IMG/VR virus record: IMGVR_UViG_3300022744_000774
Span: 1 to 45,001 of that record
From: a virus
Strand: one strand, 5' to 3'
Length of the DNA: 45,001 bases
Position 1 is the first letter of the stretch; every line of letters begins with the position of its first letter. The notes under the pieces are model-generated. The model made no database searches. It saw nothing but the letters and a program-made list of their open reading frames with translations, and was not told where the DNA came from. Positions 5,580-36,009 of this stretch are shown piece after piece. The position numbers were made by a program, and so were the translations under genes.

Positions 5580-5788
5580 GCTTTTGCTCCTTTGGTTTTG
5601 TGGATGAGGTGAGCCTTGTCAAACCCCACCCAATGACCGTCTTTGTCCAGGCCTCTGTTGGCCAACTCAAGACGGGCTAGGTGGTTGAGGTCGAGCTCAC
5701 CCTTGGCTACGGCGGACAAGACATCGGTTGGCGCGATTTGGATGAACCCAAGTTCATCAATCGAGAAGGCGGTGGCTTTTGCGTTCAT
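5576..5788 (-). CDS. Small phage protein, first gene of leftward operon
   Basis: A 70-residue protein starting at 5788 with a strong AAGGAG ribosome binding site. It contains I-D-E-L-G-F-I-Q-I-A-P-T-D-V-L and L-A-R-L-E-L-A-N-R-G-L-D-K-D-G-H-W-V-G-F. Proteins of this layout are frequent neighbours of DUF6900/DUF3489 genes in phages, but I know of no assigned function. It leads the leftward unit 5788-4572; its promoter should lie in the short divergent space before the HNH gene (5789-5896). Confidence 0.65.
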   Translation of the reverse strand: MNAKATAFSIDELGFIQIAPTDVLSAVAKGELDLNHLARLELANRGLDKDGHWVGFDKAHLIHKTKGAKA

Positions 5789-5896
5789 TGCTTTGATCTC
5801 CTTTGTTTGTTGCGATGTAAAGCATTGACGCTCTCATTCGAGAAGAAGCCAAGCTAATTACTCGATGTGTCGCTTATTCCTTGAAAGTTGATTGAG

Positions 5897-20058: not shown

Positions 20059-20651
20059 TGGCAACCATCATTCTTCTCGGCGAACTAGGGCGACAGTTCG
20101 GTCGCCGACACAAGATGGTGGTGGCTAGTGCTGCTGAGGCCGTGCGTGCATTGAGTGCCAACTTCCCAACCTTTGAGCGTGTGTTGGTGAGCTCTGGAGA
20201 GCGCGGTGTTGGCTACAAAGTCCTGGTTGGTCGAGATGAACTCAATCTTGAGCGTTTGCATGAACCTAGTGGTCAGCAACGCATCACGATTGCGCCCGTC
20301 ATCTCGGGTGCTGGTGGTAATGGACTCGGGCAAATCATCCTTGGCGCTGCATTGATTGCCGTTGCTTGGTGGAACCCCATGGGATGGGCTGCGGCAGGAA
20401 GTTTCTTGTCGCAAGCCACGCTGTATTCGGTGGGCACATCCATGATTCTTGGCGGTGTGGCTCAGATGATCGCTCCAACGCCTAAATCCTCAGACCCTTC
20501 AGAGCGGCCAGAGAACAAGCCCAGCTATGCATTTAATGGTGCAGTCAATACGACTGCGCAAGGTCAGCCTGTCCCAGTGGGCTACGGACGCTTGATTGTG
20601 GGATCCGCTGTCATCAGCGCAGGGATTGATGTGGACGAGGTGCCTGTATGA
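20058..20651 (+). CDS. Tail assembly protein I-like
   Basis: A 197-residue gpI-family protein. The N-terminal half has a ubiquitin-like look (I-I-L-L-G-E-L-G-R-Q-F-G-R-R-H). A hydrophobic Gly/Ala-rich hairpin follows at about 90-140 (G-L-G-Q-I-I-L-G-A-A-L-I-A-V-A-W-W-N-P-M-G), and the C-terminus ends with the family's V-P-V-G-Y-G-R-L-I-V-G-S-A-V-I-S-A-G. It is needed for tail tip assembly in lambda and absent from the mature virion. It overlaps both neighbours slightly. Confidence 0.9.
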   Translation: MATIILLGELGRQFGRRHKMVVASAAEAVRALSANFPTFERVLVSSGERGVGYKVLVGRDELNLERLHEPSGQQRITIAPVISGAGGNGLGQIILGAALIAVAWWNPMGWAAAGSFLSQATLYSVGTSMILGGVAQMIAPTPKSSDPSERPENKPSYAFNGAVNTTAQGQPVPVGYGRLIVGSAVISAGIDVDEVPV

Positions 20652-23600
20652 ATGAATCGATCACCGAATCCATAAGCCAACCTTCACTCATCATTGGTGC
20701 AGGCGGTGGTGGCAAAGGTGGCGGCGGGAGTGCGAGGGTTGCACAAGAGGCCCCCGATAGCCTGCGCTCCAAAGCCTTCGCTCGCGTGGTGGACTTGGTG
20801 TGCGAGGGAGAAATTCAAGGGCTGGCCAATGGCCTGAAGTCTGTTTATCTTGATGACACGGCCATTCAAAATGCCGATGGCAGTTACAACTTCGCTGGCG
20901 TAACGCTAGAAACTCGCAACGGAACGCAACAGCAAAGCTACATCCCCGGTTTCTCATCTGTTGAGAACGAGGTTGCTGTCGGTGTGGAATGCAAGTTCAA
21001 CCAACCTGTCGTTCGCGCCATCACCGATCCGGATGTAGATGCTGTTCGCGTCAAGATTAGTTTTCCGGCGCTGACATATCAAGACGCTACCAATGGCGAC
21101 TTGAGTGGCACAACCGTGGACTTTGCGATCGATGTGCAAAGCAACGGGGGTGGTTACTCGCAGGTGGTGGCTGACTCGGTTTCTGGAAAGACCACCACCA
21201 AATACCAACGCAGCTACTACATCCCACTCAATGGTTCTGCACCATGGGATGTGCGGTTGCGTCGGATCACAGAGGATTCAACCAAGACCAATATCCAGAA
21301 CAAGATGTTTCTGGAGTCCTACACCGAAGTCATTGAGAGCAAGCTTCGTTATCCCAACAGCGCCTTGATGGCATTGCGCGTTGATGCCTCACAGTTCAGT
21401 TCTATTCCGAAGCGCAGCTATGACTTGAAGCTGCTTCGGGTACGCATACCGTCTAACTACTATCCCGAGACGCGCTCATATTCGGGCGTGTGGGATGGCA
21501 CATTCAAAGTCGCATGGACGGACAACCCTGCCTGGTGTTTCTACGATTTGGTGACCAGCACCCGTTATGGCTTGGGCAACTACATCCCAGAGGCACAGGT
21601 CGACAAGTGGGCCCTGTATCGCGTGGCACGTTACTGCGATGAATTGGTGCCCAACGGGTTAGGAAGCTACGAGCCTCGGTTCACCTGTAACCTATATCTG
21701 CAGACAAGAGAGCAGGCTTACAAGGTCGTGCAGGACATGGCCTCGATCTTCAGGGGCATGGCGTATTGGTCAGGTGGTGCCATCACCGTGACCCAAGATG
21801 CACCGCAAGATGCGGTCTATCAATTCACGGCTGCAAACGTCATCGATGGGGACTTCTCGTACCAAGGCTCGTCTGCCAAAGCGCGTCACACCGTGGCGTT
21901 GGTGAGTTGGATTGACCCAGACGACTTCTACCGTCAGAAGGTGGAATACGTTGAGGATGTCGACGGAATTGCCCGCTACGGCTTGGTGCAAGCTGATGTT
22001 GTGGCCATGGGATGCACTTCCCGAGGTCAGGCTAACCGAGTTGGTAAGTGGTTGCTCTACTCAGAGCAGTCCGAGTCGGAAATCATCACGTTTCGCACTG
22101 GGCTTGAAGGTGCGGTGGTGCGTCCAGGTGACGTCATCAAAGTGACTGACGCAAGCCGTGGTGGCTTGCGACTCGGTGGGCGTATCGCAGCGGCCACAAC
22201 CGTGACCGTGACGCTTGACCAAGACCCACCTGCAGGTTCGTGGCGGATTTCAGTTATTACGCCAGCTGGCACGGTGGAAGAACGACAAGTGGGATCGTTC
22301 AGCGGTCGAACACTTGGTGTGACCAGTTCGTTTTCTGCTGCACCTCAACCGGGGGTGATTTGGGTCTTGGCCTCAAGTCAGGTCGAGGCACAACTCTTTC
22401 GGGTGGTGCAAGTTGCTGAGAGTGAGCCGGGCATCCATGAGGTGACAGCCCTTGCGCACAACCCAAGCAAGTACGCAGCGATTGAGCAGGGCTTGGCGCT
22501 GCAACCTCGTGACATCACGGTGCTGTCGACCACCCCTGCAATGCCAACAGGCTTGAAGGTGTCTGAGAGCCTGTATCGGGTCAAGGATCAAGCGCTCGTA
22601 TTGATTCAGGTGGCGTGGGAGCAGGTCTTTGGTGCGCTTGAGTATCAGGTGAGCTATCGGCTCAATGGCGGCAACACCGTCACCTTGCCTCGTGTGTCCA
22701 CCAGTTATCTGGAAATTCGCAATGCCGAAACTGGAGACTATGTCTTCACGGTCAAGGCCGTTGGCGTTTCAGGAAAACTTGGTAACGGTGCAACGCTTGG
22801 TCAAACCATCCTTGGCAAATTGCAGCCCCCCGACGATGTGCAAGATTTCCTTGTGTATCGCAGAACGACTGACTTGCTTCTCAAGTGGGCAGCCAACACA
22901 GATGCTGACTTGGCGGGTTACGAGGTACGTGTGGGTTCGGGCTGGGACTCAGGAGTATTGGTTGGCCAAACCGCAGGCACGCAGCTTGTTCATGACCAAA
23001 GTGAGTCGGGCCAGTACAACTACTTCATCCGAGCGTTTGATACCTCGGGCAAGTACAGCACGCATGTCACGACTTTTCAGCTGATCTTGCTTGCCCCATC
23101 GTCGGTGAGGCAGTTTGATGTGGTCCAGTCTGCCAACCGTCTGGAGTTTCGTTGGCTGCCCAACCCAGAGCCTGAGGTTGTGGCTTACGAGCTCAGGGAA
23201 GGGGGAGCCTGGGACACCTCCATCTTCATTGCAGAGGTGAAGTCCAGTAGCTACACCTTGCCATCGGGCTTCGATGGTGAGCGAAAGTTCTGGATCAAGG
23301 CGATTGCCTCTCCTGGCATCTACTCAGACGAAGCTACCTTTGTCTCGACTGTGGTGGCCCAGCCGCAAAACGCCAACCTACTGGTGACCATGGATGCGCA
23401 AGCGACAAGGTTTCCGGGGATCAAGCACTTTGCGTCTGTGGAATCAGTCAACAGTCTTGATGTCCTGCGCATGGACAGCGGAGTCAGTCAGTCTGAGTAT
23501 CTGTTCGAAGTGAACCTTCCGACCAGTTACCGGGCTCAGAACACCTTACTGGCCAGCATTGGCGCAACGCTGGATGACCGCGAGACATGGAGCACGGCCA

Positions 23601-24175
23601 ACTATGCGTGGAACAGCCAAGCGGCCAAGCGTCAATGGACCTATGACGGGGCGCTCAAGAGTATTGAGGCGCGATTTCAAATTGCGCGTGAAGACACATT
23701 GCAGTCTGGTGAGATTTATGGGTGGCGCCTCAACGGGGTACTCAGCGGTTACGGCAGTCCAACAAGTGGGGATGCCGCAGGCGTGAGCTACGGAGATGGT
23801 CGTTACGGGACAGGTGTGTTGATCAAGGACACCACCAAAGTGTCATGGGGCGTGCGCATACCGGGCGTGTTTCATGTGAGCTTTTGGTTCATCCCCAATC
23901 AAGTCACCACATCGGTGATCTGGAGTGCGACTGGTGCGGGGGTGAGCTTGTGTGTCGGGTATGACGCTGCAAACCAAGTGTTCTTCCTTGAAGACCACCT
24001 GTTCAATCGCATCCAAGTTCCATACCCCGTCAATGTGAGTGATCGCATTTGCGTTGGGGTGTGTCAAACCGCGACAGAGCGCAGGCTCTTTATCGGAAAG
24101 ATGGGTGGGGATGTGCAAAGCGCTAGCAGCGCAATGACATCTACAGCGGGCTACACCGCACTCAAGCTTTACTGA
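20648..24175 (+). CDS. Central tail fibre / host specificity protein J
   Basis: A 1175-residue tail tip protein of the lambda gpJ family. The N-terminal ~600 residues are the conserved hub part (G-K-G-G-G-G-S-A-R, then V-D-L-V-C-E-G-E-I-Q-G-L). From ~630 to ~900 come tandem fibronectin-III-like modules (L-A-G-Y-E-V-R-V-G-S-G-W-D; V-A-Y-E-L-R-E-G-G-A-W-D). The last ~200 residues contain a W-S-T-A-N-Y-A-W-N-S motif shared with a later tail protein, then a LamG/concanavalin-like stretch (V-F-H-V-S-F-W-F-I-P-N) that could bind surface glycans. Receptor recognition is inferred from lambda. A strong terminator follows. Confidence 0.93.
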   Translation: MNESITESISQPSLIIGAGGGGKGGGGSARVAQEAPDSLRSKAFARVVDLVCEGEIQGLANGLKSVYLDDTAIQNADGSYNFAGVTLETRNGTQQQSYIPGFSSVENEVAVGVECKFNQPVVRAITDPDVDAVRVKISFPALTYQDATNGDLSGTTVDFAIDVQSNGGGYSQVVADSVSGKTTTKYQRSYYIPLNGSAPWDVRLRRITEDSTKTNIQNKMFLESYTEVIESKLRYPNSALMALRVDASQFSSIPKRSYDLKLLRVRIPSNYYPETRSYSGVWDGTFKVAWTDNPAWCFYDLVTSTRYGLGNYIPEAQVDKWALYRVARYCDELVPNGLGSYEPRFTCNLYLQTREQAYKVVQDMASIFRGMAYWSGGAITVTQDAPQDAVYQFTAANVIDGDFSYQGSSAKARHTVALVSWIDPDDFYRQKVEYVEDVDGIARYGLVQADVVAMGCTSRGQANRVGKWLLYSEQSESEIITFRTGLEGAVVRPGDVIKVTDASRGGLRLGGRIAAATTVTVTLDQDPPAGSWRISVITPAGTVEERQVGSFSGRTLGVTSSFSAAPQPGVIWVLASSQVEAQLFRVVQVAESEPGIHEVTALAHNPSKYAAIEQGLALQPRDITVLSTTPAMPTGLKVSESLYRVKDQALVLIQVAWEQVFGALEYQVSYRLNGGNTVTLPRVSTSYLEIRNAETGDYVFTVKAVGVSGKLGNGATLGQTILGKLQPPDDVQDFLVYRRTTDLLLKWAANTDADLAGYEVRVGSGWDSGVLVGQTAGTQLVHDQSESGQYNYFIRAFDTSGKYSTHVTTFQLILLAPSSVRQFDVVQSANRLEFRWLPNPEPEVVAYELREGGAWDTSIFIAEVKSSSYTLPSGFDGERKFWIKAIASPGIYSDEATFVSTVVAQPQNANLLVTMDAQATRFPGIKHFASVESVNSLDVLRMDSGVSQSEYLFEVNLPTSYRAQNTLLASIGATLDDRETWSTANYAWNSQAAKRQWTYDGALKSIEARFQIAREDTLQSGEIYGWRLNGVLSGYGSPTSGDAAGVSYGDGRYGTGVLIKDTTKVSWGVRIPGVFHVSFWFIPNQVTTSVIWSATGAGVSLCVGYDAANQVFFLEDHLFNRIQVPYPVNVSDRICVGVCQTATERRLFIGKMGGDVQSASSAMTSTAGYTALKLY

Positions 24176-24253: not shown

Positions 24254-24700
24254 ATGATTGAAGAAGGCATGAACATCAAAGGCGCAATCACGTTGCTGTT
24301 GGCCAAGGCCAGTGGCGAGGTGGAGGTGGTTCACAAAGAGAACATCATCGTCAATGGGGGCTTTGACTTTGTAGCCGACGCCATTGGTAACTCATCCAGT
24401 CGCCCAGGCGTGATGGGGTGGATTGCCCTTGGAACTGGGACCACGGCAGCAGCGGCAACGCAAACTGCATTGGTCACAGAAATCAAGCGCAACGCTGCAA
24501 CGTATGCCCATACGGCTGGCACCAAGGTTTTTACCTTCACCGCCAGTTATCCCGCCGGGGATGCCACGGGAGCGATCACTGAGGCAGGTGTGTTCAACGC
24601 CGCATCTGCTGGCTCTATGTTTGACCGTGTGGTCTTTCCTGTGGTGAATAAGGGCGCAGACGACAGCTTGACCGCTGTGTTCACGTTCACCATGAGTTGA
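24254..24700 (+). CDS. Phage tail protein, probable fibre-base component
   Basis: A 148-residue, beta-rich protein starting with AGGA eight bases upstream of ATG 24254 (an alternative ATG at 24269 is possible). The sequence has V-N-G-G-F-D-F-V-A-D-A-I-G, then W-I-A-L-G-T-G-T-T-A-A and I-T-E-A-G-V-F-N-A-A, which I associate with small collar/fibre-base proteins placed after J in siphophages. It probably contacts the fibres encoded next. First gene after the terminator. Confidence 0.7.
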   Translation: MIEEGMNIKGAITLLLAKASGEVEVVHKENIIVNGGFDFVADAIGNSSSRPGVMGWIALGTGTTAAAATQTALVTEIKRNAATYAHTAGTKVFTFTASYPAGDATGAITEAGVFNAASAGSMFDRVVFPVVNKGADDSLTAVFTFTMS

Positions 24701-24713
24701 TAGGACTGGGGCT

Positions 24714-25904
24714 ATGGCCGAGACCGCAAGCGTCACAACGACACCGGGTGCTAACTACACCTGGAACACGGCAAATTTTGCGTGGAACAGCGCCGCCTCA
24801 GGCAAGAACTGGTCTAGCGCCTATCCCGCCATCTATGCCCTCAATGTGGCGTCCGATCTCAACTTTGCTGAATTGGTCCAAAAACTCAACACCAAGCAAA
24901 TCGCTGATGGGTTCGCTATCGTCGAAACAAGTAATCGTGTTGTTGTGCTCAACAAGTTCGAGGCTTGGGGTTTTGTTGAAACCTATACCGACCTGATTGC
25001 CTATGTGCTGAGGTTTGTGGAATCGTTTTCGGTATCGGAGCAGTACAAGCAGAACTGGACCAAGGCTGTGCTTGAGGCATTTCAAGTTGACGAAGGACTT
25101 GCACGGCAGTTGGTGCTCAAGAAGTTCGAAGCGATTGGGATCGCTGAAACCTATACCGACCTCATCGCATACATCCTGCGCGTGAGTGAGAGCTTCAGTT
25201 TTGCTGAAGTCCCATCCAAGAGCATCACGCAACCACAGTTTGAAACGCTTGGGCTGTCGGATGGTCTTGCCAAAGCTCAAACCAAGAGAGTGGCTGAAGC
25301 ATTTGCCTTTGCTGAACTCTTCGGACGCACCGTTGCCTATCGACGAGCCCTTGCAGAAGGCTTTGCAATTGGTGAGGCGTTAAAGCGTGCTCAGACGATC
25401 AAGCTTAGCGAGGCATTTGCGCTTGTTGAGCAGTACAGGCGCAAAGCAAACGGTGTGATCAGCGACATGATCGTTGCCAGCGCAGAAATCACTGAGCAGG
25501 ACTTCACGGACATCTTGGAGTCAGGGCATCCGCCGGGTTACACAAATTTCCGGGACTTCATCCAAGGCGACTACACCTACCAACGGGCGCTGTTCAGAGC
25601 GGTGATCACTTCGAACAATGCCGACAGGGGCTACATCGATGGCTTGCGGGTCACGGTGGATGTGCCTGATGTGTTTGATCGTGGCACGGCACAAGTCACC
25701 AATGCGGCCAATGGCGTGTTCGTTGGTTTTTCCCGAATGTTCAGGGTGGCCCCAGAGGTGACGTTGACTTTTAAGGGCGGAACAACCGTTGCCGTACCTC
25801 GGATTCTTGGAAGTGTGAGCACCACAGGCTTCACGGCTGTTTTAGAAAACACCTCTGGCACGCGGGTCACCGGTGCCATCTCTTGGGTTGCACAAGGCTA
25901 TTAA
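24714..25904 (+). CDS. Repeat-rich tail protein
   Basis: A 396-residue protein in three parts. The N-terminus has Y-T-W-N-T-A-N-F-A-W-N-S, like a motif near the end of J. Residues ~43-245 are about 11 tandem units of 17-21 residues with a core like E-(A/S/G)-F-x-(I/V/F)-x-E. The C-terminal ~140 residues look like a beta-sandwich (D-R-G-Y-I-D-G-L-R-V-T-V-D-V-P-D-V-F-D-R) with a terminal T-S-G-T-R-V-T-G-A-I-S-W. The repeats would make an extended helical or beta stalk between J and the fibre. I do not recognise a named family. Confidence 0.75.
   Translation: MAETASVTTTPGANYTWNTANFAWNSAASGKNWSSAYPAIYALNVASDLNFAELVQKLNTKQIADGFAIVETSNRVVVLNKFEAWGFVETYTDLIAYVLRFVESFSVSEQYKQNWTKAVLEAFQVDEGLARQLVLKKFEAIGIAETYTDLIAYILRVSESFSFAEVPSKSITQPQFETLGLSDGLAKAQTKRVAEAFAFAELFGRTVAYRRALAEGFAIGEALKRAQTIKLSEAFALVEQYRRKANGVISDMIVASAEITEQDFTDILESGHPPGYTNFRDFIQGDYTYQRALFRAVITSNNADRGYIDGLRVTVDVPDVFDRGTAQVTNAANGVFVGFSRMFRVAPEVTLTFKGGTTVAVPRILGSVSTTGFTAVLENTSGTRVTGAISWVAQGY
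24840..25440 (+). repeat. Tandem ~19-residue repeats in tail protein
   Basis: About 11 degenerate units, for example E-S-F-S-V-S-E-Q-Y-K-Q, E-A-F-Q-V-D-E-G-L-A-R, E-A-F-A-F-A-E-L-F-G-R, E-G-F-A-I-G-E-A-L-K-R and E-A-F-A-L-V-E-Q-Y-R-R. Two of them, F-E-A-W-G-F-V-E-T-Y-T-D-L and F-E-A-I-G-I-A-E-T-Y-T-D-L, are close to identical and lie 168 bases apart (24954 and 25122), suggesting a recent three-unit duplication. Confidence 0.8.
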
Positions 25905-26825
25905 ATGCAAAACTACACCGAAATTCCCTCGTCCTCGACGCTGTCGGACTCGTTGTCTCAAATCTTGAACAACGACAAGACGGCGTTATCGCTCTCAAGT
26001 GGTACGTCTTTCCCGACGGTCAACCTGCAACAGGGCATGCCTTGCTTTAGGACTGACGAGCAAAAGCTCTATGTCTTGACCGTGGTCAGTCCTGCCACTT
26101 GGAAGATGGTGATTGACTTATCGGCCACAGTGGGCAAGGTCGCCAATGCTGACTTGCTGGATGGCATTGATTCCACTGGCTTCGCGCTTGCAGGACACAC
26201 CCACGATGCTGCCTATGCGGCTCTGGGGCACAACCACAACGCAACGTATCTCGGCATCACGGCTAAAGCTGCAGATGCGGACAAGCTCGATGGTTATGAC
26301 TCAACTGCCTTTGTGAGATCGGTCAACGGTTACGGGCCTGATGCCAACGGCAATTCGTCCATACCAATTGATCTCTCCAGTCGAGTTGCCAAGTCGGGCG
26401 ACACCATGTCAGGCACGCTCACGGTGCCGCGATTGCAGATATCCAGTACAGCCAACTACCTGGACATGGTCGATCAGGACTGGGGGACCCGATTTCTGCA
26501 CCACAACCAGGGGCTCATGGGATTTTTGAAATCCGATGGCAATTGGGACATGTACATGAACAACAGCGGTCAGATGTGGACCGCCAATTACGGCTGGCTG
26601 CACGACTACTTTTTCTCATCAGTTGCCAACTGCGCACCCACCTTGGTGAACTGCAACGGTAATGCGGGCAATTGCATTCCAGAGGTGCCAATCAATTGCT
26701 ATGGGGGCGGGAATATGCAGCAAATTCGCGCAGAGCTACTTGATAACGGTAGCCAAGTTCAGCTCCGATCCGTTCGATACAACTTCAACTGCAACTGCAA
26801 CTGTGATTGCAACTGTATGGGGTGA
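25905..26825 (+). CDS. Tail fibre with Asn-Cys-rich C-terminal tip
   Basis: A 306-residue fibre. Residues ~1-75 are a probable attachment region. Residues ~75-135 hold trimeric fibre repeats with G-H-T-H-D and G-H-N-H-N, typical of metal-binding His in phage fibres, and A-D-A-D-K-L-D-G-Y-D-S. Then comes K-S-G-D-T-M-S-G-T-L-T-V (~165-176), another fibre hallmark. The last 65 residues are unusual: cysteines at 243, 250, 257, 265, 296, 298, 300, 302 and 304, each preceded by Asn except one Asp, ending N-C-N-C-N-C-D-C-N-C-M-G. Mixed Asn (AAC/AAT) and Cys (TGC/TGT) codons argue for selection on protein sequence. Followed by a helper gene and two radical-SAM enzymes, it is probably a modification substrate (inference). 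Confidence 0.88.
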   Translation: MQNYTEIPSSSTLSDSLSQILNNDKTALSLSSGTSFPTVNLQQGMPCFRTDEQKLYVLTVVSPATWKMVIDLSATVGKVANADLLDGIDSTGFALAGHTHDAAYAALGHNHNATYLGITAKAADADKLDGYDSTAFVRSVNGYGPDANGNSSIPIDLSSRVAKSGDTMSGTLTVPRLQISSTANYLDMVDQDWGTRFLHHNQGLMGFLKSDGNWDMYMNNSGQMWTANYGWLHDYFFSSVANCAPTLVNCNGNAGNCIPEVPINCYGGGNMQQIRAELLDNGSQVQLRSVRYNFNCNCNCDCNCMG

Positions 26826-26827
26826 AT

Positions 26828-27613
26828 ATGAAAAAAATCACATCGATCAATTCACAGACGCTGATGCGTCATGGCCACATCATTGAGCTAGATGACAAAG
26901 GATTCACGAGCTCGCTTTACAAGCTCAAAGATGAGGTATCAAGTCATAGTCTTTCAATGACTCCTGAAGACGTAGAGGGTGGCAGTCTTTCTCCTGCATT
27001 GGAAAACCTGCACTGTGTCATCTTCAGTCGCACACGCTTTGATTTCGAGGTAATCAAGCAACGAAGCGAATTCTCTGACCATGGCATTTGGGCCATCAAT
27101 GAAAACGAGCTGTCCTATGGGCATCCCTTCAATCGCATCGTTGAAACCGTCCATTCCAAACGCCATCGCGACCACAACTCCCGGATGGGAGAGACATCTT
27201 CAATCAAAGTGCTGGTACCGCTGGCTTCTACAAATGAAGCGAATTGGGCGATGCACATTGCCTGCCATCCCGAGTTTCCATTGGTCATCAATTCAGGTGT
27301 CGAACCCCTTGGCTTGTACGAAACGATTGAAGCAGTCATGCCCACCTTGAGTACTCCCTCGCAGATTGAGGTGGCTGCCAACGAAACGGCCACGCTGAAG
27401 GTTTCCATCAACAACGCAGCAATCGGGGAGGAGGCAGAGCTTTTCGCCGAGTCTTCCGGTGGCTATTTACCGCTCACTCGGATTCAGACATCCAAACAAA
27501 CCGCGACCTTCAGGTTCATGCCTTTGGGGCTATCTAAGGGGGAAACCGTGCGCGTGAAGTTCGGATTTCGCTTTTACACAGGTTTGGCCTCAACCATCGT
27601 GAAGGTCGTTTAA
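26828..27613 (+). CDS. Unrecognised protein between fibre and radical-SAM genes
   Basis: A 261-residue protein I cannot assign. The ATG at 26828 lies two bases after the fibre stop. The N-terminal ~170 residues are mixed alpha/beta with a His/Arg cluster H-S-K-R-H-R-D-H-N-S-R near 113 and a later I-A-C-H-P-E-F. The C-terminal ~85 residues alternate hydrophobics like an Ig-like beta sandwich (I-E-V-A-A-N-E-T-A-T-L-K-V-S-I-N-N through V-R-V-K-F-G-F-R-F). No signal peptide or membrane helix. Position suggests a partner of the modification enzymes, a carrier or chaperone for the fibre tip, or a virion protein; none is proven. It ends two bases before the first radical-SAM ATG. Confidence 0.8.
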   Translation: MKKITSINSQTLMRHGHIIELDDKGFTSSLYKLKDEVSSHSLSMTPEDVEGGSLSPALENLHCVIFSRTRFDFEVIKQRSEFSDHGIWAINENELSYGHPFNRIVETVHSKRHRDHNSRMGETSSIKVLVPLASTNEANWAMHIACHPEFPLVINSGVEPLGLYETIEAVMPTLSTPSQIEVAANETATLKVSINNAAIGEEAELFAESSGGYLPLTRIQTSKQTATFRFMPLGLSKGETVRVKFGFRFYTGLASTIVKVV

Positions 27614-27615
27614 CC

Positions 27616-29049
27616 ATGTTTACGCTTTCGATGAAACGCTCCGATGGGCATCAGTTCAATTTGAACTGGAAACCATACACCCTTGAACTGGCGCAAGAGG
27701 ACGGAACGCCTGTTGATCTTGCGCCACTTCATCAGTTCTATCCCAACAAGACGTTTGCGCACTCCACCCAGCACGGAGGATATGAAAAGCAGATCGCGCA
27801 TCGCGTAGGGCCCGATGACCCTGTGGGCAAGAGCCATCACCAAAAGAATGTTCGGATCATTTTTGGATTGGCTTGCAACTTCTCCTGCTCCTACTGCTCA
27901 CAAGCAAGAGCCCGCCATTTGGATGATCTGATTGGGGAGACTTCAGATGTCGAAGACTTCGTTAAAAAGCTACCCCAGTGGTTGCACAACACCCCGGATG
28001 AGTTGATTCGCTTCGAGTTTTGGGGTGGTGAGAGTCTTGTCTATTGGAAAAAGATCAAGCGCATGGCTGAAATGCTTCGCGCCTTGTATCCAAACGCTTA
28101 TTTCTGGCTCCCGACCAACGGCAGTCTGATGACCCGTGAAATGAATAAGTGGCTCTTTGAACTCGATTTCCACATTGCCTTTTCACATGACGGACCAGGG
28201 CAGCACCATCGAGGGCCAGAAGATCCATTGGATGATCCGGAGGCGTTTGCGGCGATTGCCGAATACTGCGATCGCATGACTCCAAGGCGTAAGTTCAACA
28301 TCAACTTGGTGATGACTTACGGAAACCACTCCTACGAAAAAATTGTCCGGTTCTTTGCCGATAAGTTTCGTGGGCATCAGTTTCCAATGATTTCATGTGA
28401 GGGGTTGGTGCTTGCGCACAGCAAGCATGACAAAGATCGTTCGCCTGAAACTGCAGAGGCGCATCACGAAATCAGGACACGTTTGCTCAGCGATGTCGTG
28501 AACTATGGGTTGGACTCGGTTTCTTTTGTGGGGCATCACATTGGTGAGTTTGCGGCTGACCTGTTAGACCGACGAACCTCGGAGTTTCACGGTCAGGGGT
28601 GCGGCCTTGATAGGCAAGACAACATCACCCTCAAGCTCAATGGGGATGTGGTCATCTGCCCAAATGGATCAGCACCAGATCAAAAAATCGGATCGGTCTA
28701 TGACTTTGATGCCATTGAGTTGAGAACAACGCATTGGAGTCACCGTGACGGGTGCAACTCTTGTCCTGTCATGCCTCTGTGCGGTGGGGCTTGCATGATG
28801 TTCGATGGTGAAAACCACGCCATCACCTGCGACAACCACTTCACCTACCACCTTGTGTTTTTTGCCTACGTGCTTCGCATCCTCACGGGTGCAACGCTGC
28901 ATCGAATCACTGGCGACAAGATCCGCTTTTCTGAAATCAAGCAGTTTGACTATTGGTCACCTTGCGAGATTCGACCCAAGTCGAAAACTCGCGCTTTCCC
29001 AATCCCTGTTGTCGCTGATGGAGCCTCCGTTGGCTGTCCATCCGTTTGA
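27616..29049 (+). CDS. Radical SAM / SPASM peptide-modifying enzyme 1
   Basis: A 477-residue radical-SAM enzyme. The C-N-F-S-C-S-Y-C motif (Cys87, 91, 94) would bind the [4Fe-4S] cluster that cleaves AdoMet. F-W-G-G-E-S-L-V-Y follows as the GGE motif. The C-terminal SPASM domain has seven cysteines (329, 348, 380, 383, 389, 393, 405), including the exact C-x2-C-x5-C-x3-C, enough for two auxiliary clusters. SPASM enzymes typically modify peptides, for example in sactipeptide and ranthipeptide systems and anaerobic sulfatase maturation. About 80 residues precede the core and could be a substrate-recognition region. The C-terminus ends with A-F-P-I-P-V-V-A plus an extension. Substrate: I infer the Asn-Cys fibre tip. 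Confidence 0.9.
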   Translation: MFTLSMKRSDGHQFNLNWKPYTLELAQEDGTPVDLAPLHQFYPNKTFAHSTQHGGYEKQIAHRVGPDDPVGKSHHQKNVRIIFGLACNFSCSYCSQARARHLDDLIGETSDVEDFVKKLPQWLHNTPDELIRFEFWGGESLVYWKKIKRMAEMLRALYPNAYFWLPTNGSLMTREMNKWLFELDFHIAFSHDGPGQHHRGPEDPLDDPEAFAAIAEYCDRMTPRRKFNINLVMTYGNHSYEKIVRFFADKFRGHQFPMISCEGLVLAHSKHDKDRSPETAEAHHEIRTRLLSDVVNYGLDSVSFVGHHIGEFAADLLDRRTSEFHGQGCGLDRQDNITLKLNGDVVICPNGSAPDQKIGSVYDFDAIELRTTHWSHRDGCNSCPVMPLCGGACMMFDGENHAITCDNHFTYHLVFFAYVLRILTGATLHRITGDKIRFSEIKQFDYWSPCEIRPKSKTRAFPIPVVADGASVGCPSV

Positions 29050-29070: not shown

Positions 29071-30435
29071 ATGGCAAAGTTTGTAGTCACTGTCGTTGAC
29101 CCCAAGACGGGGAATCCTTCGAAGCTGTTTTATGACAACGTTGAAAGCACGCTCAGCGATGAAACAGGGCTGTCGGTTGTCCAAGTCATGAGTGAGTCGA
29201 TCATGGCAGCCCGCTCACCAGTAGCTAGGACGTCTAAGTCAACACCAATAGGTAAGACGAGCCCCAGAGTTTTGAAAATCTCTCTGGGCCTATCGTGCAA
29301 TTACGAGTGCGAGTATTGCTCTCAACGGTTTGTTCCACGCTCCCAAGAGACCAATCCTGAGGACATTCAATCCTTTATCGATGGTCTCGACTCATGGATC
29401 ACAGAACCACCTGAAAAGGTCGAGTTTTGGGGAGGAGAGCCGCTGGTCTACATCAAGACACTTCGCCCTCTTGCTGAAGCCATTCGGGCTAAGTACCCGC
29501 TTACGCAATTCACCATGATCACCAATGGGTCTGTCTTGACGCCAGAGATCAATGATTGGATTGAAAAAATGGACTTCAGCATTGGGCTGTCTCACGATGG
29601 CCCAGGTCAAGCGGTCCGAGGTCCTGACCCACTGGCGGATCCGGACAAAAAGGCAGCGATTCTCGATTTGTATGCGCGTCTGGCTCCCAAGGGCAAGATG
29701 AGCTTTAACACGATGATGAATCGAAATAACCCCAGCCGAGCCGCTGTCCAGCAGTTCTTTGTCGCGCTGACGGGGGACCGGTTTGTCAGGATCGGCGAGG
29801 GGGGGATCGTTGATGCCTATGACGAGGGTGGTGTGGCCAACTCCCTGCAACCGCATGAGTTTGCTGCCTATCGCAATCTTGCTTTCTCTGAGATCAGAGC
29901 AGGGAGCGCCCGCAATTTTGGTGTGCTCGCAGAAAAGATCATGTCGTTTGTGAACTCTCTGCGAACGCGACGTCCAATCAGCTCTGTTGGACAACGCTGC
30001 AGTATGGATAAGCCCGACATATTGGCGGTCGACCTGCGGGGCAATGTGCTGACATGCCAAAACGTGAGCGCAGTTGGGATGGCTCCTAACGGTGAATCAC
30101 ATCTGCTTGGGACAGTCCATGACTTGGACCGAGTCAAGCTCAATACAGCCACTCACTTTGCCCATCGTGAAGAGTGCTTGGGTTGCCCAGTGGTGCAAAT
30201 CTGCCAAGGTGCTTGCATGTTTCTCGAGGGGCGACTCTGGGACACCACATGCAACAACGCCTATTCGGATGCGGTCCCTATCTTTGCTGCTGGCATCGAG
30301 TTTTTGACGGGGCTGTTTCCAATCCACATTGAAGGGCAGTTCAGAGCTGACCGAAAGGACTTGTTTAGCAACGCTAACTCGTCCCCTCAAAGCCCTTCAC
30401 CGAAGGCATTCCCAATCCCGGTCGTAGCGGCCTAA
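29071..30435 (+). CDS. Radical SAM / SPASM peptide-modifying enzyme 2
   Basis: A 454-residue paralogue of the preceding gene: C-N-Y-E-C-E-Y-C (Cys76, 80, 83), F-W-G-G-E-P-L-V-Y, and a shared S-H-D-G-P-G-Q segment followed by R-G-P. Its SPASM domain again has seven cysteines (310, 329, 369, 372, 378, 382, 394) with identical C-x2-C-x5-C-x3-C spacing. It ends with P-K-A-F-P-I-P-V-V-A-A, nearly the same tail as enzyme 1. The N-terminal ~65 residues differ from the paralogue, which could mean a different substrate site or partner. It begins 21 bases after enzyme 1 and is the last gene before a terminator. Two copies suggest sequential modifications or a heterodimer; both are inference. Confidence 0.9.
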   Translation: MAKFVVTVVDPKTGNPSKLFYDNVESTLSDETGLSVVQVMSESIMAARSPVARTSKSTPIGKTSPRVLKISLGLSCNYECEYCSQRFVPRSQETNPEDIQSFIDGLDSWITEPPEKVEFWGGEPLVYIKTLRPLAEAIRAKYPLTQFTMITNGSVLTPEINDWIEKMDFSIGLSHDGPGQAVRGPDPLADPDKKAAILDLYARLAPKGKMSFNTMMNRNNPSRAAVQQFFVALTGDRFVRIGEGGIVDAYDEGGVANSLQPHEFAAYRNLAFSEIRAGSARNFGVLAEKIMSFVNSLRTRRPISSVGQRCSMDKPDILAVDLRGNVLTCQNVSAVGMAPNGESHLLGTVHDLDRVKLNTATHFAHREECLGCPVVQICQGACMFLEGRLWDTTCNNAYSDAVPIFAAGIEFLTGLFPIHIEGQFRADRKDLFSNANSSPQSPSPKAFPIPVVAA

Positions 30436-32483: not shown

Positions 32484-32867
32484 TTATTTGAGTGTAAATC
32501 GCACTGTCGCCACTTTGGCGTTGTTGCTGACTTGTGCGACTACTTTCGCTCCTGCAAGCGCTTTGAATTTTCCAGTGGCTTCAAGCTTCTCACCTACCGG
32601 TTTTAATTCAACCTCTTGTTTTTCAGAGCCTGAAAGCATCGTGACTTTGGCCGTAGCCTTGCTGACATTGACAGGCTTGCCGTGATCGCGCACATAAAGT
32701 TGTAAAACATCAGCCTTAGCTACAAATTCATATTCAATGTCCTTCACCTCTGCCACCACACCTCCGTGCATGGGCTGGGTATCGCCATGAGTGTGGCCTT
32801 CTCCAGCTGCAAATGTGACTGAGCTGATCAGTAGGCTCAGTGCGATCACTAATTTCTGACTTTTCAT
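32484..32867 (-). CDS. Small periplasmic protein of metal efflux operon
   Basis: A 127-residue exported protein. The signal peptide ends near V-T-F-A-A and the mature part begins G-E-G-H-T-H-G-D, a likely metal-binding segment. H-G-G-V-V-A-E-V and a small beta-rich domain follow. The ATG at 32867 has AAAGGA upstream. It is the last gene of the leftward efflux operon, 22 bases after the RND stop. A periplasmic metal-binding or delivery role is inferred from composition and context. Confidence 0.75.
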   Translation of the reverse strand: MKSQKLVIALSLLISSVTFAAGEGHTHGDTQPMHGGVVAEVKDIEYEFVAKADVLQLYVRDHGKPVNVSKATAKVTMLSGSEKQEVELKPVGEKLEATGKFKALAGAKVVAQVSNNAKVATVRFTLK

Positions 32868-32889
32868 TTCCAATCCTTTCTGTAACTAA

Positions 32890-35800
32890 TTAAAGTGCTT
32901 CGGCGTCTTTGTCATCTAACAAAAGTTCGGTATCTCGACGACCAAAGAGCCAAAACATCACGGGGGTCAGGAACGTATCAAGCAACGTGGAGCTGATCAA
33001 CCCTGAAAAAATTACCACCGCAACTGGGTGTAAAACCTCAGTCCCCGGGCGCTCTGCTTCAAAAAGCAAAGGAGCCAATGCAAAAGCTGTTACCAACGCA
33101 GTCATCAACACAGGGCTTAATCGTTCGAGCGAACCACGAATAATCATCTTGTGATCAAAATTCTCACCTTCAAACCGCATCAAGTTGATGTAATGACTGA
33201 CTTTTAAGATGCCATTTCTGACTGAAATTCCAGCTAGTGTGATGAATCCCACCAAAGCGGCAACAGACAACGGCTGTCCTGACAACCACAGCCCGAGAAC
33301 TGCACCTACCAAGGCCAGCGGTATGTTCACCATGATCAACGCGGAAAGTCGCGTCGACTTGTAGCGGCTGTACAGAACCACAAACATCAAGACCAGCGAC
33401 ACGATTGAGAGCAGCCCCACAAGTCGTGAAGCTTCCTCTTGAGCTTGAAACTGACCGCCTAGCGTGATGAAGTACCCCTCGGGGAGTTTGGTGTCAGCCA
33501 CCACAGCGCGAATATCCGCAACAATTTCTGACAAAGCTCGACCAGATGCGTTTGCGGACAAAACGATGCGGCGTTTGCCGTCATCGCGGCTGATTTGGTT
33601 CGGGCCATCGCCATCCTCAATCGTCGCCAACTTTGACAATGGCACTCGACCGTTGGGAGTCTCAATCAAGATTTGGTTTAAGCCCTCAACCGAACGAGCA
33701 GATTCAGGCAAGCGCACGACCAACGCAAAACGACGTCCGCCTTCCACAATCTGGGTGATTTTTTCGCCTTCGACCAAGCTTTGCAAAGTCGAGAGCACTT
33801 GTGGTGCAGGAATTCCGTATTGAGCTGCGGCGGCATAGTCAATACGAACCTTGATTTGCGGTGCCAGCACTTGCTTTTCAATTTGCAAATCAGCAATGCC
33901 GGGAATAGTCGCTAATCGTGCTCTCAACGAATCAGCTTGCCCACGCAATCCATCTAAGTCATCGCCAAAAATTTTGATGGCGATTTGCGAGCGCACCCCG
34001 GACAGCATGTGATCGATACGGTGGGAAATGGGTTGACCGATTTCTAGGGCGGCGGGCAAATTGACAAGGCGAGAACGGATGTCTGCCTTGATTTCATCCA
34101 TACTGCGCGTCAGCTCACCCGTTGGTTTGAGGCCCACGTCCAGCTCACTCACGTGAACGCCCTCTGCGTGCTCATCAAGCTCAGCTCGTCCGCTTCGACG
34201 ACCGACATGTGTGACCTCTGGTACTTGCTTGACCAAGACCTCGGCTTGTCTGGCCAATGCAGTGGTTTCGGACAAAGTCACGCCGGGGTTCAAGCGCAGT
34301 CCGATCAGCAGTGTTCCTTCGCTGAATGGTGGCAAGAAAGTCGTCGGGAAAAATGGTACTGCTGCAATTGCCGTCAGCACGGCGAATCCAGAGGCAACCA
34401 ATGCAGTTTTCGGTTTTTGTAAAACGCTTTGAAGACTGCTTGCATAGCGTGTTTTGAGCCAAATCAGAACCTTGGTATCCCCATGATCCAAGTTTTTCAT
34501 GGTCGGCAGGAGGTAGTAACTCAGCACGGGGGTAATGGTGACCGAAACAAGCAATGAAGCCAGAGTTGAAACGATGAAGGAAATGCCCAACGGAACAAAG
34601 AGCTTTCCCTCCAAGCCGGGCAATGCAAACAACGGAATGAAAACGAGGACGATGATCACCGTGGCATACAAAATGGCAGATCTAACCTCCATTGAGGCTT
34701 TCGCTACAACTTCCAACGGATGAAGCCGATGCTGCGGATGTTTTATGCGATCTTCCTTCAACCGTCGCAGAATGTTCTCTACGTCGACCACCGCATCGTC
34801 GACCAGACCGCCAATGGCAATGGCCAATCCTCCAAGAGTCATGGTGTTGATAGACAAGCCAAAGTACTTGAATACCAAAGAGGTGATGAAGATGGATACG
34901 GGAATCGCTGTCAAGGCGATGATGGTGGGTCGAACCGTACCTAAGAAAAAGAACAAAATCACAGCGACAAAGACGGATGCACCAATCAATTTGCCTTGTA
35001 GCGTATTGATGGATGCTTCGATGAAGCTGGCCTGTCTGAATGTGACGCGAGGGGCATCCATGCCAGCTGGCAAGGATGATTTCAAACCTACCAACGCATC
35101 CTCAATTGCACGGGTAAGAGCAATCGTGTCTGCTGTGGGTTGTTTCTGAATACCCAAAATAACTGCCGGTTTCCCCTCAAACCCTGCATCACCACGCTTC
35201 AACGCTGCAGCAAAAGTAACATCGGCAATTTGACGCAACAAGATTGGCTGCCCATTTTTTGTGGTCAGTGCCAGATTTTTCAGATCATCCAAACGGGAAG
35301 TTCGTCCGAGGTTGCGGATCAGGTATTCCCGTCCATTGAGTTCCAAAAAGCCACCGGAGGTATTGGCAGAAAAACCTTTCAGCGCAGCTTCCATTTGATC
35401 GTGTGAGATGCCTAACTCAGCCATACGAGCCGTGTTGGGTTGCACCTGAAACTGACGCACCTCGCCACCAATTGGAATAACTTGGGCAACCCCAGAAACC
35501 GACAGAAGGCGTGGACGCAAAACCCAGTCTGCGTACTCTCGGACAGCCATAGCTGAAATCTTCTGCGAATCGACTGGAATAGCGATTTGCATGATCTCGC
35601 CCATGATCGAGCTGATTGGTCCCATGCGCGGCATTACGCCAGCAGGCATACCGTCTTCCATGGCTGACAGTCGCTCAGATACCAACTGTCTTGCACGGAA
35701 AATGTCTGTATCCCATTTGAAAGTCACATATAAAAATGACAACCCGGCTGAAGAAATAGACCGGACGGATTCAACGCTAGGCAAACCGTTCATGGCGGTC

Positions 35801-36009
35801 TCTAGGGGGAAGGTGATGAGTTGCTCAACTTCCTCTGGCGCCATGCCACCTGATTCGGTCATGATGGTGACCGTGGGCTTGTTCAAATCAGGAAAAACAT
35901 CCACTGGTGTTTTTGTCAATGTGAATGCGCCGTAGGTCATCAATACGACACTGGCGATGATCACCAGCAATCGATTGGCTAAACTGTTTTCAAGTAACCA
36001 CTTAAACAT
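32890..36009 (-). CDS. Heavy-metal efflux RND transporter (CzcA/CusA family)
   Basis: A 1039-residue inner membrane pump of the HME-RND type: a dozen membrane helices with two large periplasmic loops. It begins M-F-K-W-L-L-E-N-S-L-A-N-R-L-L-V and has G-G-M-A-P-E-E-V-E in the first porter domain. The fourth helix reads I-G-G-L-V-D-D-A-V-V-D-V-E-N, with the proton-relay Asp pair. That helix differs from classical CzcA (which has D-F-G ahead of I-V-D-G-A-V) and CusA (I-G-A-M-V-D-A-A), so substrate class is uncertain. It starts one base after the adaptor stop. The pump exports metal ions from periplasm or cytoplasm through the outer membrane factor encoded in the same operon. Confidence 0.93.
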   Translation of the reverse strand: MFKWLLENSLANRLLVIIASVVLMTYGAFTLTKTPVDVFPDLNKPTVTIMTESGGMAPEEVEQLITFPLETAMNGLPSVESVRSISSAGLSFLYVTFKWDTDIFRARQLVSERLSAMEDGMPAGVMPRMGPISSIMGEIMQIAIPVDSQKISAMAVREYADWVLRPRLLSVSGVAQVIPIGGEVRQFQVQPNTARMAELGISHDQMEAALKGFSANTSGGFLELNGREYLIRNLGRTSRLDDLKNLALTTKNGQPILLRQIADVTFAAALKRGDAGFEGKPAVILGIQKQPTADTIALTRAIEDALVGLKSSLPAGMDAPRVTFRQASFIEASINTLQGKLIGASVFVAVILFFFLGTVRPTIIALTAIPVSIFITSLVFKYFGLSINTMTLGGLAIAIGGLVDDAVVDVENILRRLKEDRIKHPQHRLHPLEVVAKASMEVRSAILYATVIIVLVFIPLFALPGLEGKLFVPLGISFIVSTLASLLVSVTITPVLSYYLLPTMKNLDHGDTKVLIWLKTRYASSLQSVLQKPKTALVASGFAVLTAIAAVPFFPTTFLPPFSEGTLLIGLRLNPGVTLSETTALARQAEVLVKQVPEVTHVGRRSGRAELDEHAEGVHVSELDVGLKPTGELTRSMDEIKADIRSRLVNLPAALEIGQPISHRIDHMLSGVRSQIAIKIFGDDLDGLRGQADSLRARLATIPGIADLQIEKQVLAPQIKVRIDYAAAAQYGIPAPQVLSTLQSLVEGEKITQIVEGGRRFALVVRLPESARSVEGLNQILIETPNGRVPLSKLATIEDGDGPNQISRDDGKRRIVLSANASGRALSEIVADIRAVVADTKLPEGYFITLGGQFQAQEEASRLVGLLSIVSLVLMFVVLYSRYKSTRLSALIMVNIPLALVGAVLGLWLSGQPLSVAALVGFITLAGISVRNGILKVSHYINLMRFEGENFDHKMIIRGSLERLSPVLMTALVTAFALAPLLFEAERPGTEVLHPVAVVIFSGLISSTLLDTFLTPVMFWLFGRRDTELLLDDKDAEAL

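Follow-up and report, generated by a model that had tools for sequence, protein, structure and literature searches.

The ranthipeptide maturases CteB/SCIFF and PapB/freyrasin combine a radical-SAM (rSAM) domain and a seven-Cys SPASM domain, and their substrates, with several Cys each, are encoded next door. CteB is a thioether-forming enzyme. QhpD, an rSAM enzyme in the maturation of quinohemoprotein amine dehydrogenase, acts on a Cys-rich protein subunit and not on a released peptide. The His-Xaa-Ser (Hxs) system consists of a repeated short C-terminal motif and a pair of rSAM enzymes. To our knowledge, no virion structural protein is known to be matured by radical-SAM chemistry. We found no description of an rSAM-matured phage fibre tail in the literature that we searched, which comprised no preprints and few subscription journals; an earlier report may therefore exist. 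For Campylobacter phages, 11-12 rSAM genes were reported, to which no function was assigned (PMC2853527).

Here we studied a stretch of 45,001 nucleotides (the window) of a linear IMG/VR record with a lambda-like tail module. We consider it probable (roughly 0.7) that the Cys tail of a fibre protein encoded in the window is the substrate of a neighbouring rSAM/SPASM enzyme and is probably cross-linked through thioethers. The features are as follows.

20648-24175, plus strand: J-like central tail protein, assigned from position and sequence (upstream context)
24254-25904, plus strand: two tail-tip accessory ORFs (148 and 396 aa) between J and the fibre
25905-26825, plus strand: P0001, tail-fibre protein of 306 aa, the putative substrate, encoded by the third gene downstream of J
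26631-26825, plus strand: Cys tail of P0001, with four separate NC pairs and then NCNCNCDCNC-MG at the C-terminus
26828-27613, plus strand: P0002, 261 aa, a frequent partner
27616-29049, plus strand: P0003, rSAM/SPASM enzyme of 477 aa, the second and optional rSAM
29071-30435, plus strand: P0004, rSAM/SPASM enzyme of 454 aa, the constant partner

The gaps between the genes from P0001 to P0004 are 2, 2, and 21 bases, and a holin-like ORF and a glucosaminidase are located downstream of P0004. The 148-aa ORF matched phrog_5417 (E=4e-24). The 396-aa ORF (24714-25904) is possibly another tip protein: stretches similar to AEAF/ETYTDLIAYVLR recur in it, and its end weakly matches an H-type lectin (H_lectin). 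A RiPP natural-product cluster has a short precursor with a leader, a protease, and an exporter, whereas here the candidate substrate is a 306-aa fibre, and no protease or exporter was recognised between 24254 and 31344. Further right, past the lysis genes, minus-strand genes of the heavy-metal efflux (RND) type (32484-36009) look bacterial; thus, the record may be a prophage with a host flank.

P0001 matched phrog_8443, tail fiber (E=6e-6), contains GDTMSG and the YGWLH fibre domain, and has N-terminal relatives in the Achromobacter phages JWF and 2-1. By both its fibre homology and its place downstream of J, it is a phage tail fibre. The region 26631-26825 corresponds to codons 243-306 and the stop codon of the ORF 25905-26825. 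When the positions were recounted in the 306-aa ORF, the description in the initial annotation was exact: nine Cys (243, 250, 257, 265, 296, 298, 300, 302, and 304) lie within the last 64 residues, eight preceded by Asn and one by Asp, and the last five form a terminal CxCxCxCxC. The only other Cys in the protein is C47. That nine of the ten Cys should fall within the last 65 residues by chance has a hypergeometric probability of 5e-6. Among 200,000 shuffles of the tail, none had N or D before all nine Cys, and 0.08% had CxCxCxCxC. At the DNA level, the pattern for the NC run gave two overlapping matches in the window, compared with 0 expected from shuffled windows.

The initial annotation had also pointed out a spacing of seven between the first Cys. 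This spacing does exist in P0001 (7, 7, 8), but it is not conserved among relatives (for example, ANCFIGNCPGNTGNC in L003); it therefore has little weight, and we dropped it as a signature. DNA slippage as the origin of the NC run was rejected, in agreement with the earlier argument, because the codons are mixed (AACTGC, AATTGC, AACTGT, and GATTGC) and the pattern persists in diverged fibres.

We collected about 100 non-redundant fibre ends with the same kind of tail; a few entries in this set are spurious frames or Hint-bearing proteins, which do not end in the tail itself. Of the 733 Cys counted in these ends, 492 directly follow N, 56 follow D, and 49 follow A, while N makes up 12% of all tail residues. 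What is conserved is the pairing of N with C, together with a CxCxC run at the terminus. As Ala or other residues stand in the place of Asn in many tails, Asn may be a recognition residue and not the acceptor. The fibre bodies vary widely, and the tail and the rSAM gene are constant, usually together with the P0002 family. Some fibres with identical first 157 residues have different end domains, yet each has a Cys tail and an rSAM gene.

In several loci (L018, L412, L427, L445-L449, and L457), a Hint (intein-like) domain that starts with CFPAGT or a similar sequence directly follows the Cys tail. Its presence suggests that self-cleavage would free the C-terminus of the tail after modification. 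The isolated Achromobacter phage JWF (NC_029075; L044 5844-7295) also has a fibre with a Cys tail and then a Hint domain. Its genes gp028-gp030 encode a fibre with NCDCNCNCS, a hypothetical protein, and an rSAM enzyme with 47% identity, and the gene order (J, small protein, fibre, and rSAM) matches that of the window. JWF differs from the window in the Hint domain, in an accessory gene unlike P0002, and in having one rSAM gene. The gut phage contigs L132 and L183 contain a divergent form of the system. Each locus has several Cys-rich ORFs with long CQTCQGC runs and NCNCDC ends, accompanied by two rSAM genes and by a distant relative of P0002. Gut-phage tails that finish in CC or have extended CxxC runs, as in these two contigs, may be made differently.

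The initial annotation had proposed to test whether the [N/D]-C repeat co-occurs with rSAM/SPASM genes, and the scans showed that it does, almost without exception. In the tail-first scan, viral contigs were searched with the DNA pattern NCNC[ND]C[ND]C, which matched at least 120 stretches, and ORFs with at least 3 kb downstream were used. Among the matches listed, an rSAM gene was nearby in 65 of 69 NC-tail ORFs, or in 40 of 44 when only non-redundant ends were counted; the four without it were short or internal frames and not C-terminal tails. As a control, we used 59 complete fibres that share KxGDTMTG, unselected and with at least 3 kb downstream. All 57 fibres without a CxCxC tail also had no rSAM gene, and both fibres with the tail had one (Fisher p=6e-4). 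One of these two (L341) has the fibre, P0002-like, P0003-like, and P0004-like genes in the order of the window, including the two rSAM genes. A P0004-based search gave 41 viral loci, mostly with an upstream fibre ending in (N/A/D)C repeats.

With the YGWLH fibre domain as the query, which was selected independently of the tail, we obtained 80 loci. All complete fibres among them had a Cys tail; thus, these fibres were unusable as a control and were replaced by the unselected motif. With at least 3 kb downstream, all of these loci except L086 had an rSAM gene. We do not count L086 as a tail without rSAM, because its contig stops after 3.9 kb of downstream sequence, whereas the rSAM gene of its sister L011 lies 4.5 kb downstream.

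In the enzyme-first scan, 12 rSAM sequences were compared with 84,980 species genomes. We obtained 74 loci, many from Limnohabitans, other Comamonadaceae, Polynucleobacter, and Burkholderia, and some from Rhodospirillales, and 56 of them had a CxCxC tail ORF upstream. The loci without the tail were mostly cut off upstream (for example, L405, L413, and L417), frameshifted, short-tailed (NCDCHC in L444), or degenerate (L418). L387 was rejected as a case of rSAM without a tail, since its fibre ORF continues in another frame. A few chromosomal rSAM relatives with 34-43% identity (Variovorax, Ramlibacter, L434, and L450) have no fibre. Near the relative in L450, an Oligoflexia genome, there is a small Cys-rich ORF (5644-5895, CGGPCGPC...), which is perhaps a cellular RiPP precursor. 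In Polynucleobacter L418 and L037, both partners are damaged: the rSAM gene is spread over three frames, and the tail run is interrupted (NCNCDRNCGC). This is consistent with joint decay.

The association of tail and rSAM in one gene block across many unrelated fibres strongly supports the tail as a very likely rSAM substrate. We looked for fibres that keep the repeat without any rSAM gene, and the search did not refute the substrate idea. The tail module and the rSAM gene could instead share a block by descent and not act on each other; the two are located together in the tail-tip region, and there is relatedness among many of the contigs. This is highly improbable, as the pairing is kept in about 40 non-redundant unrelated ends, tail-less fibres do not have the gene, and the broken rSAM genes in L418 and L037 coincide with broken tails.

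Another proposal is a metal needle, in which the alternating Cys of a trimeric fibre point inward and bind a column of metal ions, the rSAM enzyme being secondary. In an alternating CxCxC strand, every Cys would project from the same face, and HxH iron motifs occur in T4-type fibres and an Alteromonas phage (PMC11705849). The tip of T4 gp37 resembles the present tail in its repeated residue pairs, but gp37 uses His and non-covalent iron with no enzyme; the window tail was negative for HxH, and there is no His in residues 242-306 of P0001. The needle also leaves unexplained why rSAM is nearly always found with the tail and is absent without it. We regard it as unlikely.

The initial annotation was right about the rSAM partner of the tail but did not name P0002, a frequent third gene family. 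We found 240 ORFs of this family (108 non-redundant) in the fetched loci. Among the matches listed, P0002 was present in 31 of 40 non-redundant NC-tail loci and undetected in 9. Its model (pLDDT 93) has a C-terminal Ig/intimin-like domain (171-261; intimin 6tpl, Z 10.0, rmsd 2.5, 87 aligned). The N-terminal domain had no match in the PDB structure search, which does not imply a new fold. P0002 belongs to no family in Pfam or NCBIfam, and its viral relatives are uncharacterised phage proteins.

Other genes are found in some tail/rSAM blocks. A 2OG-FeII oxygenase-like gene (L003 4713-5303), a tryptophan halogenase (L014 8716-10239, E=6e-97), and a fatty-acid desaturase (L021 5181-5894) possibly represent further fibre tailoring. 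Halogenase or desaturase genes occur in few rSAM loci. A candidate TP-methylase (L020 7356-8093) was rejected, as Pfam gave no support.

P0004 and P0003 both matched phrog_1802 (E=5e-59 and E=1e-47, respectively), which is described only as radical SAM domain-containing. Both scored above the cut-off of the SPASM model TIGR04085 and are rSAM/SPASM enzymes. P0004 has exactly ten Cys, three of the rSAM motif (C76/80/83) and seven of SPASM (C310/329/369/372/378/382/394). P0003 has CX3CX2C at 87/91/94, seven SPASM Cys, and an extra C261. The initial annotation had assigned the modification to both adjacent enzymes; the association holds, but of the two only the P0004 type (phrog_1802) accompanies the tail constantly. 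P0003 is optional; among 114 non-redundant rSAM loci, we detected a second rSAM in 10.

Gene-order association alone cannot name the reaction. No named maturase family reached its curated cut-off with P0004 (PapB 54-55 bits vs 340, the others far below). In the case of its AlphaFold model (pLDDT 90), the closest solved fold is CteB (5wgg, Z 24.3, 357 residues, rmsd 4.1), followed by ChlB (Z 21.5), anSMEcpe (20.6), and TigE (18.7). These closest solved relatives have cysteine peptides as their substrates. Ranthipeptide and sactipeptide maturases have a RiPP recognition element at the N-terminus, and the full-length P0004 model, which aligns with CteB from residue 1, may have one. Seven SPASM Cys are found in AlbA-type enzymes as well, and this count cannot specify the bond. 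In CteB, a site on Aux I is open, and anSME is fully ligated (PMC6231123). With seven SPASM Cys and no linker Cys, Aux I in P0004 would be one ligand short, which is consistent with an open site as in CteB. PapB joins Cys-Xn-Asp with n=0-6 (PMC9413430); thus, cross-links inside NC/DC runs are chemically reasonable.

If the tail is the substrate, a thioether is the best guess for the product and a reasonably likely one by analogy, because of the nearest relatives of the enzyme, the cluster ligands, and the constant Cys. A different radical change on the tail, such as a C-C bond, epimerisation, or a combination with 2OG hydroxylation of Asn/Asp, is rather unlikely. TigE and ChlB are also near folds, and a 2OG-oxygenase-like gene was found in 60 of 114 non-redundant rSAM loci, about half; against this, the constant residue is Cys and not a carbon-only residue, and the window block has no 2OG gene. 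Formylglycine formation, in which an anSME-like enzyme turns Cys to aldehydes that bind host-surface amines, is very unlikely in spite of the place of anSMEcpe among the nearest solved folds. The tail does not have the C/S-x-P/A-x-R target motif, P0004 has seven and not eight SPASM Cys with Aux I short of a ligand compared with anSME, and nine aldehydes per tail would be odd.

With the thioether reading, the window resembles CteB/SCIFF and PapB/freyrasin in the rSAM and seven-Cys SPASM domains (with Aux I short as in CteB) and in a neighbouring substrate with several Cys. It differs from them in that the substrate is a phage-fibre end and not a short precursor, the motif is NC and not C-x3-D, and the enzyme is below the family cut-off. 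QhpD shares the whole-protein substrate (P0004 scored 49 bits against TIGR03906, cut-off 453), but its target is a cellular enzyme subunit and here it is a virion part. The Hxs system shares a repeated C-terminal motif with rSAM, and HxsB was a weak match below its cut-off; here the motif is Asn-Cys and not His-Xaa-Ser, and Hxs is not a phage-fibre system.

We propose that the rSAM/SPASM enzyme would modify the Cys tail inside the infected cell, ahead of virion release. The Cys sulfurs would enter thioether bonds, with the beta or alpha carbon in a neighbouring Asn, Asp, or Ala as the most likely partner, and cross-linking would give a rigid, non-reducible, oxygen-stable fibre end. P0002 may present or chaperone the tail, or sit on it in the virion. 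Further changes may come from the genes that only some blocks contain (2OG oxygenase, second rSAM, halogenase, and desaturase). The virus thus probably hardens or arms its fibre tip chemically. Receptor contact, stiffness, and protection against oxidation are ideas, not results; whether the modified end touches the host receptor could go either way.

This would be rSAM/SPASM peptide maturation acting on virion fibres. We give even odds to a broader view, a widespread class of phages with fibre ends cross-linked by a phage-encoded rSAM enzyme, in which a portable Cys tail for any fibre travels with its own enzyme and partner; the hosts would be freshwater Burkholderiales and alphaproteobacteria, and also gut bacteria, the phages of which would have a divergent form. 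As the isolated phage JWF carries the same block, a clear test is possible there. If true, the finding would provide a short portable tag for protein cross-linking, would give a function to the phage rSAM family phrog_1802, and would add a covalent, enzyme-made tip chemistry to the ways in which phages stiffen or aim their fibres.
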